Part shown: one piece after another, positions 28,269 to 36,229 of the stretch
Position numbering within the stretch: position 1 is the first letter of the stretch
How the letters are laid out: each line of letters opens with the position of its first letter
NCBI RefSeq assembly: GCF_900100715.1
Contig: NZ_FNCA01000004.1
Location: 124,001 to 188,000, forward strand
From: Methanolobus vulcani
GTDB taxonomy: Archaea; Halobacteriota; Methanosarcinia; Methanosarcinales; Methanosarcinaceae
Length of the DNA: 64,000 nt
Direction: 5' to 3'
Notes under the pieces: generated by a model
Databases searched by the model: none
Seen by the model: the letters and a program-made list of their open reading frames with translations, nothing else
What the model was told of the DNA's origin: nothing
Made by a program: the position numbers and the translations under genes

Positions 28269-29567
28269 TTAGTCGTTGCTCAGCTCACCGCTGAAGTACT
28301 TGTCATAGGAACCCATGTCAAAGTGACCATGTCCACTGAGGTTGAACAGGATGGTCTTCTCCTCACCGGTCTGCTTGCATTTGAGTGCTTCATCGATTGC
28401 GCACTTAATAGCATGTGATGATTCAGGAGCAGGAGCAATTCCTTCGCTGCGTGCAAATGTTACTGCTGCATCAAATACTTCTACCTGGTGATATGAGGTT
28501 GCTTCCATGATTCCGTCTGCAACGAGCTTACTGATAATTGGTGATGCACCGTGGTACCTGAGACCTCCTGCATGGATTGCTGGTGGTATGAATTCTGAAC
28601 CGAGTGTATACATCTTAAGGAGAGGTGTCATCTGTGCCATGTCACCGAAGTCATACTTGAACTCACCTGATGTGAGTGTTGGACATGCGGATGGCTCGAC
28701 TGCTATGAATCTTGTATTGGTCTTGCCTGCGAGGTTGTCCCTGATGTATGGCAGACTTACACCGGCAAGATTACTTCCACCGCCACAGCAACCGATCACG
28801 ATATCAGGATAGTCCTCTGTCTTGTCAAACTGTGCCTGGGTCTCAAGACCGACTACTGTCTGGTGAAGACTGGTGTGGTTAAGGACACTGCCCAGTGCAT
28901 ACTTGGTGTTGTCGTTAAGAGCTGCATCCTCAATAGCTTCACTGATGGCTATTCCTAGACTTCCTGTTGTGTCAGGGTACATTTCACGAATCTTTCTTCC
29001 AAACTGTGTGTCCGGACTCGGGGATGGGACTACTTTTGCCCCCCATAGATTGATAAGTGACTTTCTGTATGGTTTCTGGTAGTAACTTGAACTTACCATG
29101 TAGACCTTACATTCGATATCAAAATAATTACAGCAAAGTGATAATGCACTGCCCCACTGGCCTGCACCTGTTTCTGTTGTGATCCTTTCAGTGCCTTCTT
29201 TCATGTTGTAGTATGCCTGTGCGATTGCAGTGTTTGGCTTGTGGCTTCCTGCGGGACTGACACTTTCGTTCTTGTAGTAGATCTTTGCAGGTGTTCCCAA
29301 TGCCTTTTCAAGCCTGTGTGCCCTGTGCAGAGGTGATGGTCTCCAGAGAGTGTATATTTCCCTGATCTCTTCAGGAATATCGATGTATTTCTTGGAGCTG
29401 ATCTCCTGATTGATGAGTTCCTTTGCAAATATAGGCTCAAGGTCCGCAGGGTTCATCGGCTCATTGGTTGCAGGGTTCAGTGGTGGTTCTACCGGCATGT
29501 CTGCAAGTATGTTATACCACTGTTTCGGCATTTCATTTTCGTCAAGTAATATCTTTGTATGGTCCAT
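28269..29567 (-). CDS. trpB2: Tryptophan synthase beta chain-like protein, TrpB2 type
   Basis: PLP enzyme of 432 residues related to tryptophan synthase beta chains, long TrpB2 form. The PLP lysine is Lys110 in [11 protein letters not shown]; the phosphate-binding loop is [11 protein letters not shown], and the active-site glutamate region is [12 protein letters not shown]. TrpB2 differs from TrpB1 by its N-terminal extension and poor binding to TrpA; it can make tryptophan from indole and serine, perhaps as a salvage enzyme. No trpA or other trp gene is near, which agrees with a stand-alone TrpB2. Confidence 0.93.
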
Positions 29568-29694
29568 AGTTTATACCTCTGTAAAAAATAGAGTCTCTGA
29601 TGTATATCAAAGTACATTAGAGTGATATTTAATGCTTTTGATTTATGCATAAAGCCGAATTTACTATAAAATAACAAATAACTGAATTAATTAA

Positions 29695-30141
29695 TCAGCT
29701 TACTTCTATCGATTTTAGATTTGGTTTTTCCCAATCACTGAACTTGTGTATCCTTATGGAAATAACCTTGATCTCACCCGGACCTAATTCAGCATTCATA
29801 GAAGCTTCATAATGCCTGAAAGTCGACATATCATCATCAAAGGATACATCCGCAGAGATCTTGTTAATGTAAATCCCCGATGCTTCAGTGTTTTCAAGCG
29901 TGATCAGTATTCTGTCAACAGCAATTTTCCAATCTGTTACCTGAATCCCATCAGGAACTAGGATAGTCTCTCCAGATTCTCCATACTGTTCTTCAATGGA
30001 AAATGAATCAACATCAGTACTTTCGAGTGTATCTATAATTTCCTCAGTCTCGGCCCCATTTTCAGTACAACCGGACAGTAAAATAGCTATCAATATTACA
30101 ATAAATACATTGAGTGCAACCACACACTTTCTTTCCAGCAT
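29695..30141 (-). CDS. Secreted lipoprotein of unknown function
   Basis: A 148-residue protein with a lipoprotein signal: basic start, hydrophobic stretch (about 8-22) and lipobox LLSGC with Cys at about residue 25. An acidic linker follows, then a small beta-rich domain (about 65-148: VTDWKIAVDRILITLENTE, IYINKISADVSF) that looks immunoglobulin-like. No family is recognised. It is the first of several surface proteins in an AT-rich stretch and seems to be transcribed alone. Confidence 0.65.
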   Translation of the reverse strand: MLERKCVVALNVFIVILIAILLSGCTENGAETEEIIDTLESTDVDSFSIEEQYGESGETILVPDGIQVTDWKIAVDRILITLENTEASGIYINKISADVSFDDDMSTFRHYEASMNAELGPGEIKVISIRIHKFSDWEKPNLKSIEVS

Positions 30142-30239
30142 TCAACCACCATAAACAATTGAAGTGATATCGTTTATAAATATATCTGAAATTAGTTGAA
30201 AAATAAAGTAACAGAGTAATCATATATTATTCTTTATTG

Positions 30240-30475
30240 AAAATTGGGCTCCGTAGAAAAAATGGGAGGGAATTCGACAATGAATTATATCATAATAGAA
30301 ACTTGGTCGAAACGATGTTCTCTGTCCTGAAAAAGAAATATGGGGAAGAAGTAAAGGCAAAACGTTATCATAAGCAATCAAAAAAAGTAAAATTGAAGCA
30401 ATTAGTGCACAACCTTGACAGGTATGTCAAGGTTGTGTTTATTATTCAAACAAGGATTTCTACAGAACCAATAAA
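30240..30475 (+). mobile_element. Remnant of an IS transposase (C-terminal part)
   Basis: About 75 codons read as the C-terminus of a DDE transposase of the IS5/IS1182-like kind: [20 protein letters not shown] supplies the third acidic catalytic residue region (the YHNRNLVET helix with conserved Arg and Glu), then [18 protein letters not shown] and a final [11 protein letters not shown]. There is no start codon beyond a TTG at 30237, no N-terminal two thirds, and no terminal inverted repeat that I can identify, so it is dead. A perfect hairpin lies inside it (30408-30437). It sits between two lipoprotein genes and marks past insertion or rearrangement. Confidence 0.7.
30408..30437. repeat. 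Perfect 13-bp inverted repeat in the IS remnant
   Basis: CACAACCTTGACA (30408-30420) and TGTCAAGGTTGTG (30425-30437) are perfect complements around GGTA, followed by TTTATTATT. It lies inside the transposase reading frame ([11 protein letters not shown]). It would be a stable hairpin in either strand's RNA and could stop transcription out of the element. Confidence 0.8.
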
Positions 30476-30510
30476 CCAATTAATTTTAAGCATCAACTTT
30501 CTGATGAGTG

Positions 30511-31186
30511 TTAATATATAGTAAATATTTCTTTGTCTTCAGTCCATGTGATTTTGATGTAGTCATAATATCTAGAATTAATTGTCATTTCAGCTTCTTT
30601 TATTTCTTCGGGATTCAAATCACCAACATAATACCGATGAAGCAATTTACCTTCCACGATTAATTCCTTCTGTGTAGTTTGTCCAGTATATTCTTGTTGA
30701 TATGGACTATTGTAATCCACCAGTCCCGCATTATAAGAAGAGCTATCATTTGTCAAAGCCTCATATGCAACAGTTTCAAATATCTGTGCTTTATTTGGGA
30801 AATCCCCAGGATGGAAATTCCAATTATAAGTGACACCAACCACTCCACAGTACACATCATTTGCAGTAGCATCACCTGAATTAATAACTCTATATATGTA
30901 TCACATTATCTGTCATTGATGTTGACATGATTCTGAGTTCAGGATTACCCATTGGCTCTGGAGTTTGTATACTTTCAGATGTTTCAAGTTTGACTGATGA
31001 TTCCGGGTTATCAAACGATGCATTTGTTTCGTTGCTTTCTTCATTCATTTTAGACCCATCTTCAACTACTTGTTGTTTTTCTACCTGATTTGTACTAGAA
31101 TCTGTACAACCAGAAGCAATCAATGCCACAAAAATTAACATAATAGTTCCTATTTTTAGAATATATTTCAAATCAAATACCTTCAT
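30511..31186 (-). pseudogene. Lipoprotein gene broken by a 2-nt frameshift in a TA run
   Basis: The first frame (30890-31186) encodes a lipoprotein signal with lipobox IASGC, a Ser/Glu/Asn-rich linker, and the start of a domain (PELRIMSTSMTDNVIH). The second frame (to 30511) continues RVINSGDATANDVYCGVVGV and the rest of the domain. They would join smoothly if one TA unit were added in the run tatatat at 30891-30897: HIYRVINSG. So one gene of about 225 codons is split, either by real slippage (decay or phase variation) or by a sequencing error. The domain is beta-rich and unassigned. Confidence 0.75.
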
Positions 31187-31407
31187 AAAAGTAATTTTTC
31201 ATAAAGTAAACATTAGAATAATAATGTCAGTTATAGATATTACTTTTTAAATAATTTACTGTAGCGAGCATTGTTATAAATTCTTATAAATTTTGGATCT
31301 CCTCAATATAAGCGGGATTACAAAAATCTATACAATTTCCTTTTATCAATAAGATATTTAGCTAATTATCTTGCTTTTAATAACAGAGTATAACTCCACA
31401 TAACAGA

Positions 31408-31614
31408 CTACTTCTTGTAGGGAACTTTCTTGTTTATCCATAAATTAAACTCCTCAGTAACCTTCTTAGCTTCCGAATGTTTTGACCCTAGAAAATAACT
31501 TCCAGTTCTGATAAAGTCTTTATTACCCATTTTACCCGACTCATTAAGACTGAGTACAATAAAATCAACTCGGAATCTGAAAGACTCTTGCAAATCATCT
31601 TTTCCTATACACAC
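31408..31614 (-). CDS. Hypothetical 68-codon open frame
   Basis: Starts at a GTG inside the end of the sarcinarray-like gene (20-base overlap) and ends KKVPYKK. The sequence (FIVLSLNESGKMGNKDF, HSEAKKVTEEFNLWINKK) has ordinary protein composition, with alternate starts inside. No Shine-Dalgarno is convincing and no family is recognised. It could be a small third gene of the operon, or the leftover of a larger gene. Confidence 0.3.
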   Translation of the reverse strand: MCIGKDDLQESFRFRVDFIVLSLNESGKMGNKDFIRTGSYFLGSKHSEAKKVTEEFNLWINKKVPYKK

Positions 31615-32191
31615 TTACAACAACCAATGCGAGCACAGCACACAGCGTAGTAAATGCCGGAGTAGTCGGAGAAGTACTGTCACCAGATGATTCACCTGTG
31701 GATTCCTTAGGTGTTGAAGGACCATCGTAGTACTCTTCGGATATTGTGACGTAGGCGGCGGTGAATTCGCCACTTGTAATTAATTTAGCTGTGTTTAAAT
31801 CGTTCATTTGGTAGAAGAAATCAATAGGTGCACTTCCACCAGCCCATTCTTCATTTGGAGCAACAGTCCACTCAAATACTCTTGTTTCATTTACTTCCAT
31901 AACTTCATCTGTAAATGACCCCAACCTTGGTGTTGGGCCTTCTATAATATCAAAATCGTTTTCCCCAATAGATGTTAACATAACAGAAAGAAAGTTCTTT
32001 TTGTAACAAGTCACTTCAAATCTTAATTTGAATGGTTCACCAATTTTTAACAGTGGTTTTGGAATTGATGCACCAGGATACAATTGGTCATTATAGTACA
32101 TATCAACTTTAAGATTGGAACTTTCTGAAGATGCGGGCATAGAAAATAATACTAAAAAGCAAACGGTACATGCAATAATCAATTTATACAT
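31595..32191 (-). CDS. Sarcinarray/MAST-like surface protein with C-terminal sorting signal
   Basis: A 198-residue exported protein. It has a signal peptide (about 1-23), one beta-sandwich domain (about 27-155; LYPGASIPKPLLKIGEPFKL, WTVAPNEEWAGGSAPIDFFY), a Ser/Thr/Pro-rich linker, and a C-terminal tripartite tail: TPAF, a hydrophobic helix, and the basic end YRKR. Such tails are recognised by archaeosortases (PGF-CTERM-like), although the motif here is PAF. The domain resembles the sarcinarray family MAST-domain proteins of Methanosarcina, from memory. It begins 9 bases after the 1342-residue surface-protein gene. Confidence 0.65.
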   Translation of the reverse strand: MYKLIIACTVCFLVLFSMPASSESSNLKVDMYYNDQLYPGASIPKPLLKIGEPFKLRFEVTCYKKNFLSVMLTSIGENDFDIIEGPTPRLGSFTDEVMEVNETRVFEWTVAPNEEWAGGSAPIDFFYQMNDLNTAKLITSGEFTAAYVTISEEYYDGPSTPKESTGESSGDSTSPTTPAFTTLCAVLALVVVSVYRKR

Positions 32192-32200
32192 ATTCTTTCC

Positions 32201-35200
32201 TCAAAATTGTGATTCAAAATAATCGTAAGCCGTTGATTTTTCATCTCTTTCACCAATTTTATCTCCCACGCCTTTTGCACCAGGACCTACTATAGTTGCT
32301 GCATAGCCTGAAAAATCAAACGTTACTTCTTGGTTTCTTCCAATAGCAACCAAATTTCCATTTTCGTTTCTTTTAGTAGGATGGATAATCCTCTCGTTTT
32401 TTCGAATGTAACTCTGTGCATCGTGTCCGAAATATGGATTGAAAATACACTCATTGTCATTATCAATAACTTCGAACTTTTTGTACGCACCTTTCACATC
32501 ATACTCCCACACATTCACAGTACACACCCAATTCGGCGGAAGCACAGGCAGACCACATGGAACATATTCCAGGGACTTTTCAAGTCTCTTTTCGATCTTT
32601 TCGGCAAGCTGACCTGTAAGTTTTTCACTTGATTCGTCCAGTTTGTTTTGTAACTCATTGTTGATGTTCTCAAAACACTGATCTATGGTGTCCTGGCATA
32701 GTTCAATTGACTTGCAGATGCCTTCTGATACTCCTATACGCAGATCAGCTTCAAGCCGGTAAAGAACGGCATCCATTTCATCAGAATCTATTGTTGGATT
32801 ATCAGTTTGTATTTTCAGGCTGATGCGATACAGAATCTCATCCTGTAACGTGTTATCGGAAGCCATATCCACTATATTCTCATCGGAAAGCGAGTCAAGG
32901 TAAGTCTCTGTGATTGTTCTCACGTCATCTTCGCTGATCCAGGTGCTTAGAACCGGGTCGCTGGAAACTTCATCAACAATAGCTGTGGGAACCTGTTCCC
33001 TGATGGCATCGCTGTATTCACTCATCATTTTGCTGCGGTTCTGTTCAATAAAAGTGGTATCCGTTGAGACTCCGTTTGTGACAAGTTCAGTACTGTCGCT
33101 TGCAAGATCTTCAAGAAGGGAATCAATCTCAGCATTTGCATCTGAAATACTCTGGCTCATTGATTGAGAGACCATATCTTTTAGTGGTTCGGAAGCCTCC
33201 GAAAGCATTCCTGCAATATCATCACCTATGCCTGTGGAAAAAACACATACATTTCTGACTGCTAGTGGATAGACTGCTTTTCCTGTTGCATCCTCCCATT
33301 TGTATTGATTCTGGAGATCAAAATCCGGGTCATGGTACAGATAATCAGGGTACTGGTCCACAACTATTGTCATATTCTCGGTCCAGTTGTACTTGCTATT
33401 GGGCATTCCTACTACCTCCATTGTTTCGATAATACCCATTTCAGATGCCAGGGCTGTTGAAGCTTTATCCATGGCAGGGTTGTTGAAGATAACATCTGTT
33501 GATACTTTATTTTGCACAAGATCAAGAAGAGAATGTCCCTGTTCCTGTTCAAAAGATTTGTCGATATATTCCTCAAAAGAATTTTCTACATTTTTGTTCC
33601 GTTCCTTCAGTTCCTTGAGCAAACGGTCATAAGCCTCATTCTTTGAAATTGCACGACATGCATCACTACTGGTACTGAACTGACCTGAATCCAGATATTG
33701 AGATTGTTGAATAAAAGAATCTCGTTTGTAAGAAGCTTTCATTTCAGCAGCAAGGTCAAGTGAAGCCTCCTGAATCAATGTGGTTGGATTCTTCCCCAGA
33801 TTCTCACCAAGCAAGTACACTTCCCTTGTAGGATTATCAGTATTAATGGCATTGAACATGCTCTCCATTTCCCGGCTCATGTTCTTATGAAGCCATGAAG
33901 GAATATCGCAATAGACCTTCTCATCAGAAAGGTAAGTTCCGTCACTGTAAGTGTTGTATCCCTTTTCAATCTCAGCCAGATTCACATGCCGATCACGATA
34001 CTTATCTGCCGCATCACTGCATCCGGGATCATATTCCGGAAGGCCGTTGACGATTACGGTAATGTTCCTGTAATCATTGGCACTTCCTGCATCATAAGAG
34101 GAAACTAAACCATTATAACCACCAGAAGGCAGGTATTGGTGATAGACAATAGTTATGTTCTCTGTCTCGGTCTGAGTATGGGGAACCGAAAAACTATCCG
34201 TGAGTACCCTGTTCACCGAACCGCCAGAATCGCCGGAGTGATGAGTAAAGGATCCCGTCATGGAATTATATGTATTATACCACCAATGATAAGTATAATC
34301 GATTTTCCAGGACGTCTTGATCCTGAGTTTGATATTGTACGTTACTCTCCAGTCGAAACTATGGTTTTCCCATGAGAGATAGCCATCCGTACGTTCAGAG
34401 TCAAGCAGATTGTCATTACCCAGATAAGCATAGGAAACGTCCACACTGTCGCAGTTTATATCCGTTGAAACATGGTCAACATCTACATCAGTAAAATACC
34501 AGCTATGGGATGATGGAGTAAGACTTATCTTATGATCCAGATCAATAACGCCATTCCACTCGTAATCAGATGCCAGCGCACATGTATGTGATATCTTAAC
34601 CGGATAATGGCCTTTCCACGTTATATCTTTTCCACTGTATGAAACAGAATCATAGGTAGTAGGACCAGACTGCAAGCCATAAGGAATAGCTGTATCAAAT
34701 CCATCCCTGTAAACCTGGCCCTGTACCGTGCCACTGTAAACCTCATGAGTTACATCATGCAGCAGGTCAGGATAGGCATCGTTCCATTCATCATCATTGT
34801 AGACCCAGTTACTGTAAACCTCATTGGTGAAATTGGAAACAGAGACAATGATCTTAGAATTATTGACAACTTCTTCCATTGTTATGTTGGCTTCTTTCAT
34901 AGATCCATTGACACCCTGTTCAACACTTATGTTGAATGTCCCATGTTCTGACAGCTCATCGTATGTTGTGCTGATATTTTTCCCGGAATCATCTTCATAT
35001 GAACTCGTGCCTTTTTTCACGTCTTCATAGAGAACTTTGCCATTGTAATATGTGGTGTAGGTCAAAGCCCAGGGGTCTACTGAATCGAAAACACGTTTCT
35101 GTGTATAGAGAGTACCTGCATTCACAGAAGCTGCTAATGACGGACCGGTTACGATATTAAGAGGGCCATTCAGGTAATGCTGCCACGGACCATAGATAAA

Positions 35201-36229
35201 AGTCCTGATGTTGGTGGCTCCAAGCACAATATCCGATGTGATTCCACCATTAAGTTCATTTTTATATTCATTTACCAGTTCCTCAAGTAAAGGTTCCCTG
35301 GATGTTATGAGAGCACTCACATTCATGGAACCGGCTCTTGTTCTATTGTCTGTGAGATCCACAATGGTGTAATTGAGATTCTCAACGGTCATTGTATAAT
35401 ATACAGGATATCCCGGATCATCTGTTGGAGACCTGCTGATCTCTCTTTTGAGCGTACCGTTGATCATATCTATCCTGATCTGCAAAGGAGACACATCAGG
35501 ATCGATATTGATAGCATAATTGTTGAAAGTGTGCTGGTTTTCCTGATATGATGTACTTAGATATTCGTTGAAATACTCCGCTGTAATATCTTTAAGTGGA
35601 CTGCTGCCTACATTTAACCAGTTCACCGCTTTCTCCTCGCCATCGTACTCAAGGACAAGATAGGCATATCCGTATTCTGCGTTTGCAGGAATGACTAGTT
35701 CCTCTTCAAATTCAGAACATGTCCAGAACGAATGGGTTTCATCATAGGATATGGACTGGTAAACTGCCCCTGAGCCACTTTTAAGGATCAAAGTTCTTGG
35801 TTTGTCAGAAAACAGGCATGATATAGCTTCTAACACATTAGACGGAAGACTTACGCTAACCTGAATAGTATCTCCGGGTTCTGCATTCCTGTTATCCGGC
35901 TCAATGGAAAAACCGTCAGAGTCAATTTGTTCGTAAGCAAGATCCTCGGGTTTTATGACAGGATGTTCTCCCTGCCATGCAAGAGCTTCCATGCCCGCGT
36001 AGTTAAGACAGCGTGCAAGGTCAGATGAAGCAAATTCCACTGCAGTCTTTTCCATATCTGTAGTATCCGTATTGTGTATAACTTCTGCCAGCGCATAGTC
36101 AGTCTTTGTCAGGTATATCGATGCAACCACAGCAAAAAGCAGAATGAATATACCGATCACCGCAAAGGGAATATAAGCCCGGGTGTCCTGGCTAAAGCTT
36201 CGTTTTTCATTTGCGGGATCGGATATCAT
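32201..36229 (-). CDS. Giant membrane-anchored surface protein, DUF7286-like
   Basis: A 1342-residue protein with a cytoplasmic N-terminus of about 17 residues, one membrane helix (about 20-42, YIPFAVIGIFILLFAVV) and a very large extracellular part with many N-x-S/T sites. Beta-rich repeats with Trp and Tyr cover about 100-750; helical, Glu/Ser-rich coiled segments cover about 760-1240; near the end GLPVLPPNWVCTVNVWEYDVKG resembles the conserved C-terminal block of haloarchaeal DUF7286 proteins, as does the N-terminal helix. Those are encoded with pilus-type secretion genes. The N-terminal hydrophobic helix without a cleavable signal suits a pilin-like or pseudopilin-like subunit. Function unknown. 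Confidence 0.75.
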   Translation of the reverse strand: MISDPANEKRSFSQDTRAYIPFAVIGIFILLFAVVASIYLTKTDYALAEVIHNTDTTDMEKTAVEFASSDLARCLNYAGMEALAWQGEHPVIKPEDLAYEQIDSDGFSIEPDNRNAEPGDTIQVSVSLPSNVLEAISCLFSDKPRTLILKSGSGAVYQSISYDETHSFWTCSEFEEELVIPANAEYGYAYLVLEYDGEEKAVNWLNVGSSPLKDITAEYFNEYLSTSYQENQHTFNNYAINIDPDVSPLQIRIDMINGTLKREISRSPTDDPGYPVYYTMTVENLNYTIVDLTDNRTRAGSMNVSALITSREPLLEELVNEYKNELNGGITSDIVLGATNIRTFIYGPWQHYLNGPLNIVTGPSLAASVNAGTLYTQKRVFDSVDPWALTYTTYYNGKVLYEDVKKGTSSYEDDSGKNISTTYDELSEHGTFNISVEQGVNGSMKEANITMEEVVNNSKIIVSVSNFTNEVYSNWVYNDDEWNDAYPDLLHDVTHEVYSGTVQGQVYRDGFDTAIPYGLQSGPTTYDSVSYSGKDITWKGHYPVKISHTCALASDYEWNGVIDLDHKISLTPSSHSWYFTDVDVDHVSTDINCDSVDVSYAYLGNDNLLDSERTDGYLSWENHSFDWRVTYNIKLRIKTSWKIDYTYHWWYNTYNSMTGSFTHHSGDSGGSVNRVLTDSFSVPHTQTETENITIVYHQYLPSGGYNGLVSSYDAGSANDYRNITVIVNGLPEYDPGCSDAADKYRDRHVNLAEIEKGYNTYSDGTYLSDEKVYCDIPSWLHKNMSREMESMFNAINTDNPTREVYLLGENLGKNPTTLIQEASLDLAAEMKASYKRDSFIQQSQYLDSGQFSTSSDACRAISKNEAYDRLLKELKERNKNVENSFEEYIDKSFEQEQGHSLLDLVQNKVSTDVIFNNPAMDKASTALASEMGIIETMEVVGMPNSKYNWTENMTIVVDQYPDYLYHDPDFDLQNQYKWEDATGKAVYPLAVRNVCVFSTGIGDDIAGMLSEASEPLKDMVSQSMSQSISDANAEIDSLLEDLASDSTELVTNGVSTDTTFIEQNRSKMMSEYSDAIREQVPTAIVDEVSSDPVLSTWISEDDVRTITETYLDSLSDENIVDMASDNTLQDEILYRISLKIQTDNPTIDSDEMDAVLYRLEADLRIGVSEGICKSIELCQDTIDQCFENINNELQNKLDESSEKLTGQLAEKIEKRLEKSLEYVPCGLPVLPPNWVCTVNVWEYDVKGAYKKFEVIDNDNECIFNPYFGHDAQSYIRKNERIIHPTKRNENGNLVAIGRNQEVTFDFSGYAATIVGPGAKGVGDKIGERDEKSTAYDYFESQF

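Follow-up and report, generated by a model that had tools for sequence, protein, structure and literature searches.

In the window, that is, the whole stretch of 64,000 nucleotides of Methanolobus vulcani DNA that was analysed, two overlapping open reading frames lie on the minus strand between positions 30511 and 31186. The upstream one (30890–31186; 98 aa, ATG start, TAG stop at 30890–30892) encodes a signal peptide, a lipobox-like LIASGC motif (judged by eye), an acidic, low-complexity linker and the start of a C-terminal domain with the motif PELRIMS. It is overlapped in a different frame by the second one (30511–30900), which remains open for 129 codons from stop to stop, or 114 aa counted from its first GTG, and carries the C-terminal domain. 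Both meet at the tract TATATAT (30891–30897, plus-strand letters), which comprises 3.5 units, and from the frame positions adding or removing a single TA unit suffices to join them. An earlier sequence-only reading had already placed the meeting point at this TA run and proposed that one TA unit joins the frames, and its coordinates were right. The codon-usage log-odds, trained on 33 window ORFs of at least 250 aa each, supported the first frame over the interval of about 31090 to 30910 and the second frame at position 30880 and below, with the coding signal swapping from one to the other between 30910 and 30880. The signal was neutral or slightly contrary at 31120–31180 (the signal-peptide end) and at 30670–30730.

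The split gene is located between two intact minus-strand genes, a small lipoprotein gene downstream (29695–30141, 148 aa), which was matched in seven other genomes of the genus (in five of them nearly over its whole length), and a gene of the sarcinarray family upstream (31595–32191; NCBIfam TIGR04209, E 1.8e-47, over cut-off). The gap between these neighbours amounts to about 1.45 kb in the window and to about 105 bp in G010 and G020, the two genomes that keep them side by side. DNA similarity between the window and G010 stops at 30187 and restarts at 31622, with 80 bp between these points in G010, and the protein similarity of the sarcinarray gene extends to residue 197 of 198. The window thus contains an extra stretch of about 1.4 kb (30188–31597) that is absent from both genomes, where an unrelated spacer of about 80 bp occupies the same place. 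Other members of the genus showed different arrangements. In G005, an apparent hisS start comes within about 0.2 kb after the small lipoprotein gene, and in G017 and G025 the small lipoprotein and sarcinarray genes are tens of kb apart. In five genomes (G001, G002, G008, G009 and G025), only about 70–220 bp separate a match to window positions 29500–29647 from the sarcinarray gene, so that neither lipoprotein gene fits in between; the corresponding distance in G015 is about 1.8 kb. On its other side, the sarcinarray-family gene of the window adjoins a gene whose product has 1342 aa and matches DUF7286 (together 31595–36229, minus strand).

From left to right, the extra 1.4 kb consists of the tail of an IS5-family transposase gene, the split lipoprotein gene and the tail of a Cas1 gene. 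The transposase fragment (30251–30470, plus strand) covers positions 242–288 of the 289 of the NCBIfam model transpos_IS5_2 (E 2.2e-12, below the curated cut-off) and also matched Pfam DDE_Tnp_1 under the cut-off (E 0.0021). Among the matches listed, relatives of this tail were found in many of 27 genus genomes; the rest of its own genome yielded no more than a partial match of 74 nt at E below 1e-3. The Cas1 fragment (31304–31598, minus strand; Pfam Cas_Cas1, E 0.0039, below the curated cut-off) represents the C-terminal part of the protein. Compared by tblastn with a Cas1 from the genus (L084), it showed 67% identity over 92 residues (E 1.6e-30) and was interrupted in frame by two stop codons, of which one is TAG. 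The genome contains one other Cas1 copy, which is full length, and relatives of the Cas1 tail recur across the genus among the matches listed.

Cas1 genes and their tails are present in several copies in several genomes of the genus (L059–L062, L084, L085, L087, L161–L180). Of 27 loci viewed, 12 were full length and 15 partial, and 13 of the 15 partial ones extend as far as the C-terminus (at least to residue 394), counts that are biased as the query consisted of the C-terminal part only and the loci are a subset of the matches listed. Where an upstream frame was visible, 10 of 11 full-length Cas1 genes (L060, L087, L161, L167, L168, L170–L172, L175 and L178) were preceded by a similar-looking frame that appeared HTH-like by eye (103–259 residues covered); it stops 9–15 nt ahead of Cas1 residue 4, an arrangement that resembles a two-gene module. 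The exception was L084, with a frame upstream of Cas1 that looked Hcp-like by eye. The start points of the Cas1 fragments at 31598 in the window and at L085:1172 differ by no more than two residues and fall on a YDLQE motif, and each fragment directly follows the stop of an unrelated gene, the sarcinarray gene in the window and a gene judged TrmB-like by eye in L085.

The sequence-only reading had taken the two frames for one original lipoprotein gene and had suggested a search for an intact homolog. Such genes are present in two genomes, each from another genus of the same family: L106 (positions 1231–1905 in G355), a single frame of 224 aa with a TTG start, and L107 (1261–1860 in G060), a single frame of 199 aa. 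They share 33% identity over 203 columns. Both were found with the 3' piece only, and the 5' piece played no part in finding them. Nevertheless, the 5' piece matched the N-terminus of L106 (35% over 101 columns, E 3e-10 in a single comparison) and that of L107 (33% over 97 columns, E 5e-11), and the 3' piece matched their C-terminal parts (L106: 31% over 135 columns, E 3e-16; L107: 26% over 131 columns, E 2e-7). In the alignments, residue 90 of L106 corresponds to residue 98 of the 5' piece and residue 91 to residue 4 of the 3' piece; in L107, residue 79 pairs with residue 98 of the 5' piece and residue 81 with residue 5 of the 3' piece. Since the matches of both pieces meet end to end on L106, the two frames were once one gene, and as two intact proteins are each matched by the 5' piece and then the 3' piece, the split goes beyond chance. 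A natural end of the homologs at the first frame had been named as evidence against this view; both genes found (2/2) continue past the junction and run unbroken through the site of the lesion in one frame. The intact homologs thus support the proposal of a single original gene.

L106 resembles the window gene in its signal peptide, a lipobox-like Cys, an acidic linker and a PELKIMS...NVGNGTAKDVYCG domain, with matches to both pieces, and L107 displays the same architecture. They differ from it in their unbroken frames and their surroundings. The gene ahead of L106 resembles a tape-measure gene, with a match to tail length tape measure in PHROGs (E 5.3e-13) and one under the cut-off to Pfam TMP_3 (E 1.3e-6); near L106 lies a tRNA-Leu gene, on the far side of which the genes look chromosomal by eye. 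The stretch with L107 encodes a phage-type integrase (Pfam, E 2.6e-24), a primase (PHROGs, E 2.4e-44) and the small subunit of a terminase (PHROGs, E 5.1e-32). Virus-type genes therefore adjoin both intact homologs (2/2), and the similarity to each of them spans both halves of the window gene, which by sequence belongs with this element-borne family. A TIR-domain gene (L145:9302–9868; Pfam TIR_2, E 1.8e-8) adjoins L107 in the G060 element. At the window copy itself, no recognisable provirus or integrated element was found: the IS5 and Cas1 fragments flank the gene, no integrase was seen beside it, and the window contains no tRNA gene.

The lipoprotein family is rare, comprising three known sequences only. 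At E ≤ 0.001, the 3' piece gave no match in 99 other genomes, including 26 other Methanolobus genomes, and was thus found in its own genome only (1/100), where no second copy was detected at E values up to 10. Within a sample of 392 phylum genomes, seven were matched at E ≤ 0.05, namely the own genome, G355 (L106; E 1.8e-11), G060 (L107; E 0.0014) and four with weaker matches that ranged from E 0.019 to 0.047, two of them within the genus (G002, E 0.026; G023, E 0.031). A profile of the whole protein matched 57 of 111 family genomes at E ≤ 0.01, strongly in three of them (own genome, G355 and G060). The matches in the other 54 were weak, with an E value of 1.4e-7 for the best and above 1e-4 for most, and mainly covered the first third of the profile with the signal peptide and linker. 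The surroundings were viewed for four of the longer ones (G321, G447, G360 and G390); judged by eye, G321 and G447 resembled nucleases and G360 a substrate-binding protein, and these three seem to be unrelated lipoproteins. From the 392 phylum genomes, a profile restricted to the C-terminal domain recovered the own genome, G355 and G060, and five further genomes matched weakly and in part (E 1.2e-4 to 0.0027).

At the thresholds used, the 3' piece had no match in Pfam, NCBIfam, PHROGs, plasmids or solved structures, and L106 and L107 had none in Pfam or PHROGs. Matches of the 5' piece in Pfam and NCBIfam (best E 0.016 and 0.021, respectively, under the curated cut-offs) were dismissed as signal-peptide noise. 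Pattern scans, which reach close relatives only, yielded 27 matches for the 3' piece in genome_contigs and seven in viral_contigs, none of them a relative; likewise, no relatives were among the 18 and one matches obtained in viral_contigs for L106 and L107, respectively. Structure prediction of the 3' piece from its single sequence resulted in a poor model (mean pLDDT 40.4).

The sequence-only reading had offered decay, error or a phase switch as explanations of the split. A switch by slippage in the TA tract would be in line with a dinucleotide tract at the junction of a surface-protein gene where one unit more or less brings the frames together, and the gene shares with bacterial phase-variable surface genes based on simple sequence repeats that a repeat lies inside a surface-protein gene and that its length sets the frame. 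Unlike in those genes, the tract comprises only 3.5 units, occurs at chance frequency and is unconserved. Known phase-variable dinucleotide tracts are far longer than 3.5 units. Of the alternating TA tracts in the window, 12 reach 7 nt or more (11 are exactly that long), compared to a Markov expectation of 8.05 on average (range 3–12 in 20 first-order controls), and a second 7-nt tract lies in the tail of the same split gene (30514–30520). The junction tract itself is therefore no more than chance would produce, being neither longer nor more frequent, and nothing singles it out. No minimum length for phase-variable dinucleotide tracts was found in passages of PMC11868660 and PMC2831843. The tract is also not kept at this place in the homologs, as the junction codons of L106 and L107 contain no alternating TA tract of at least 4 nt. 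Furthermore, the spacing between KIMS and an N-x-G anchor is 13 residues in both homologs, whereas the window frames joined via one TA unit would have 14; the homolog spacing does not fit the loss of a TA unit, although a difference of one residue could also be natural and the homologs number only two. Taken together with the missing second copy in the own genome (E up to 10) and the lack of a match in the rest of the genus (E ≤ 0.001), these results make a phase switch very improbable, and it is decay that is best supported among the options proposed at the outset.

The main rival to decay is an intact gene in which a sequencing or assembly error has produced the apparent frameshift. The assembly is indeed a draft (2.95 Mb, 20 contigs), and coding bias is seen in both frames near the junction. 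Only one lesion is visible in the gene, with the second frame open over 129 codons and its coding bias mostly kept; from this it follows that decay, if real, would be recent, and that a sequence error is also compatible. The affected site, however, is a short alternating tract and not a homopolymer, and the surroundings are themselves decayed, with a truncated transposase and a Cas1 tail containing two stops, so that we regard an error as unlikely. Two further explanations would leave the split gene functional. Recoding, by programmed frameshifting or by pyrrolysine read-through, might yield the full protein, given that the first frame stops at TAG and that this codon may be read as pyrrolysine because the genome encodes PylS (over the curated cut-off). 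Read-through of the TAG gains three residues and then encounters a TAA, so that it cannot join the frames, and both homologs are single-frame genes that need no recoding to produce one protein; this leaves recoding barely plausible. Two separate genes, the second starting at its own GTG (30855) behind the first, would account for the frame of 114 aa, but L106 and L107 each form one protein, and the GTG is the codon for V within the conserved VYCG, so that a product starting there would be without the domain start and signal peptide. We consider such an arrangement highly improbable. Independently of the split gene, PylS matches of equal score are located at the extreme ends of contigs C4 and C16 of the window's own genome, G000 (bases 6–713), which suggests an assembly-breaking repeat or a duplicated pyl region.

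Overall, the locus is best explained, with a probability of roughly 0.78, as a horizontally acquired, probably virus-borne lipoprotein gene that is now a frameshift pseudogene in mobile-DNA debris. In this scenario, a lipoprotein gene of a rare and patchily distributed family would have been acquired horizontally, most likely carried in by an integrated virus-like element, and would have persisted amid mobile-DNA debris with the IS5 tail on one side and the Cas1 tail on the other. As neither an integrase beside the window copy nor a tRNA gene in the window was seen, we infer the arrival by a virus from the setting of the relatives. With the frame shifted where the C-terminal domain begins, presumably by a real mutation, translation would then end after about 98 residues. 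The predicted product would consist of the signal peptide, the lipid anchor and the linker; since it would be without the folded domain, loss of function is expected. With ordinary frameshift pseudogenes in mobile-element scrap, the gene has in common the broken frame, the patchy distribution and the truncated IS and Cas1 neighbours; it differs in showing one visible lesion only, so that it would be young if the frameshift is real.

For the interpretation of archaeal genomes, these results remove a false lead, as a short TA run in AT-rich sequence does not by itself amount to a phase switch. What is new here is only mildly so and is confined to the rare element-linked lipoprotein family. To our knowledge, few surface-acting cargo genes are known in methanogen proviruses. 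Our most likely guess for the role of the intact family, by analogy with phage lipoproteins, would be a surface function serving the virus, such as the exclusion of related viruses. More broadly, and as a tentative idea that we hold to be rather doubtful, proviruses of the Methanosarcinaceae may carry rare surface-anchored lipoproteins that perhaps block the entry of related viruses, the window copy being an inactivated relic of one of them. If the link to such elements is true, a small lipoprotein family would join the cargo of methanogen proviruses.
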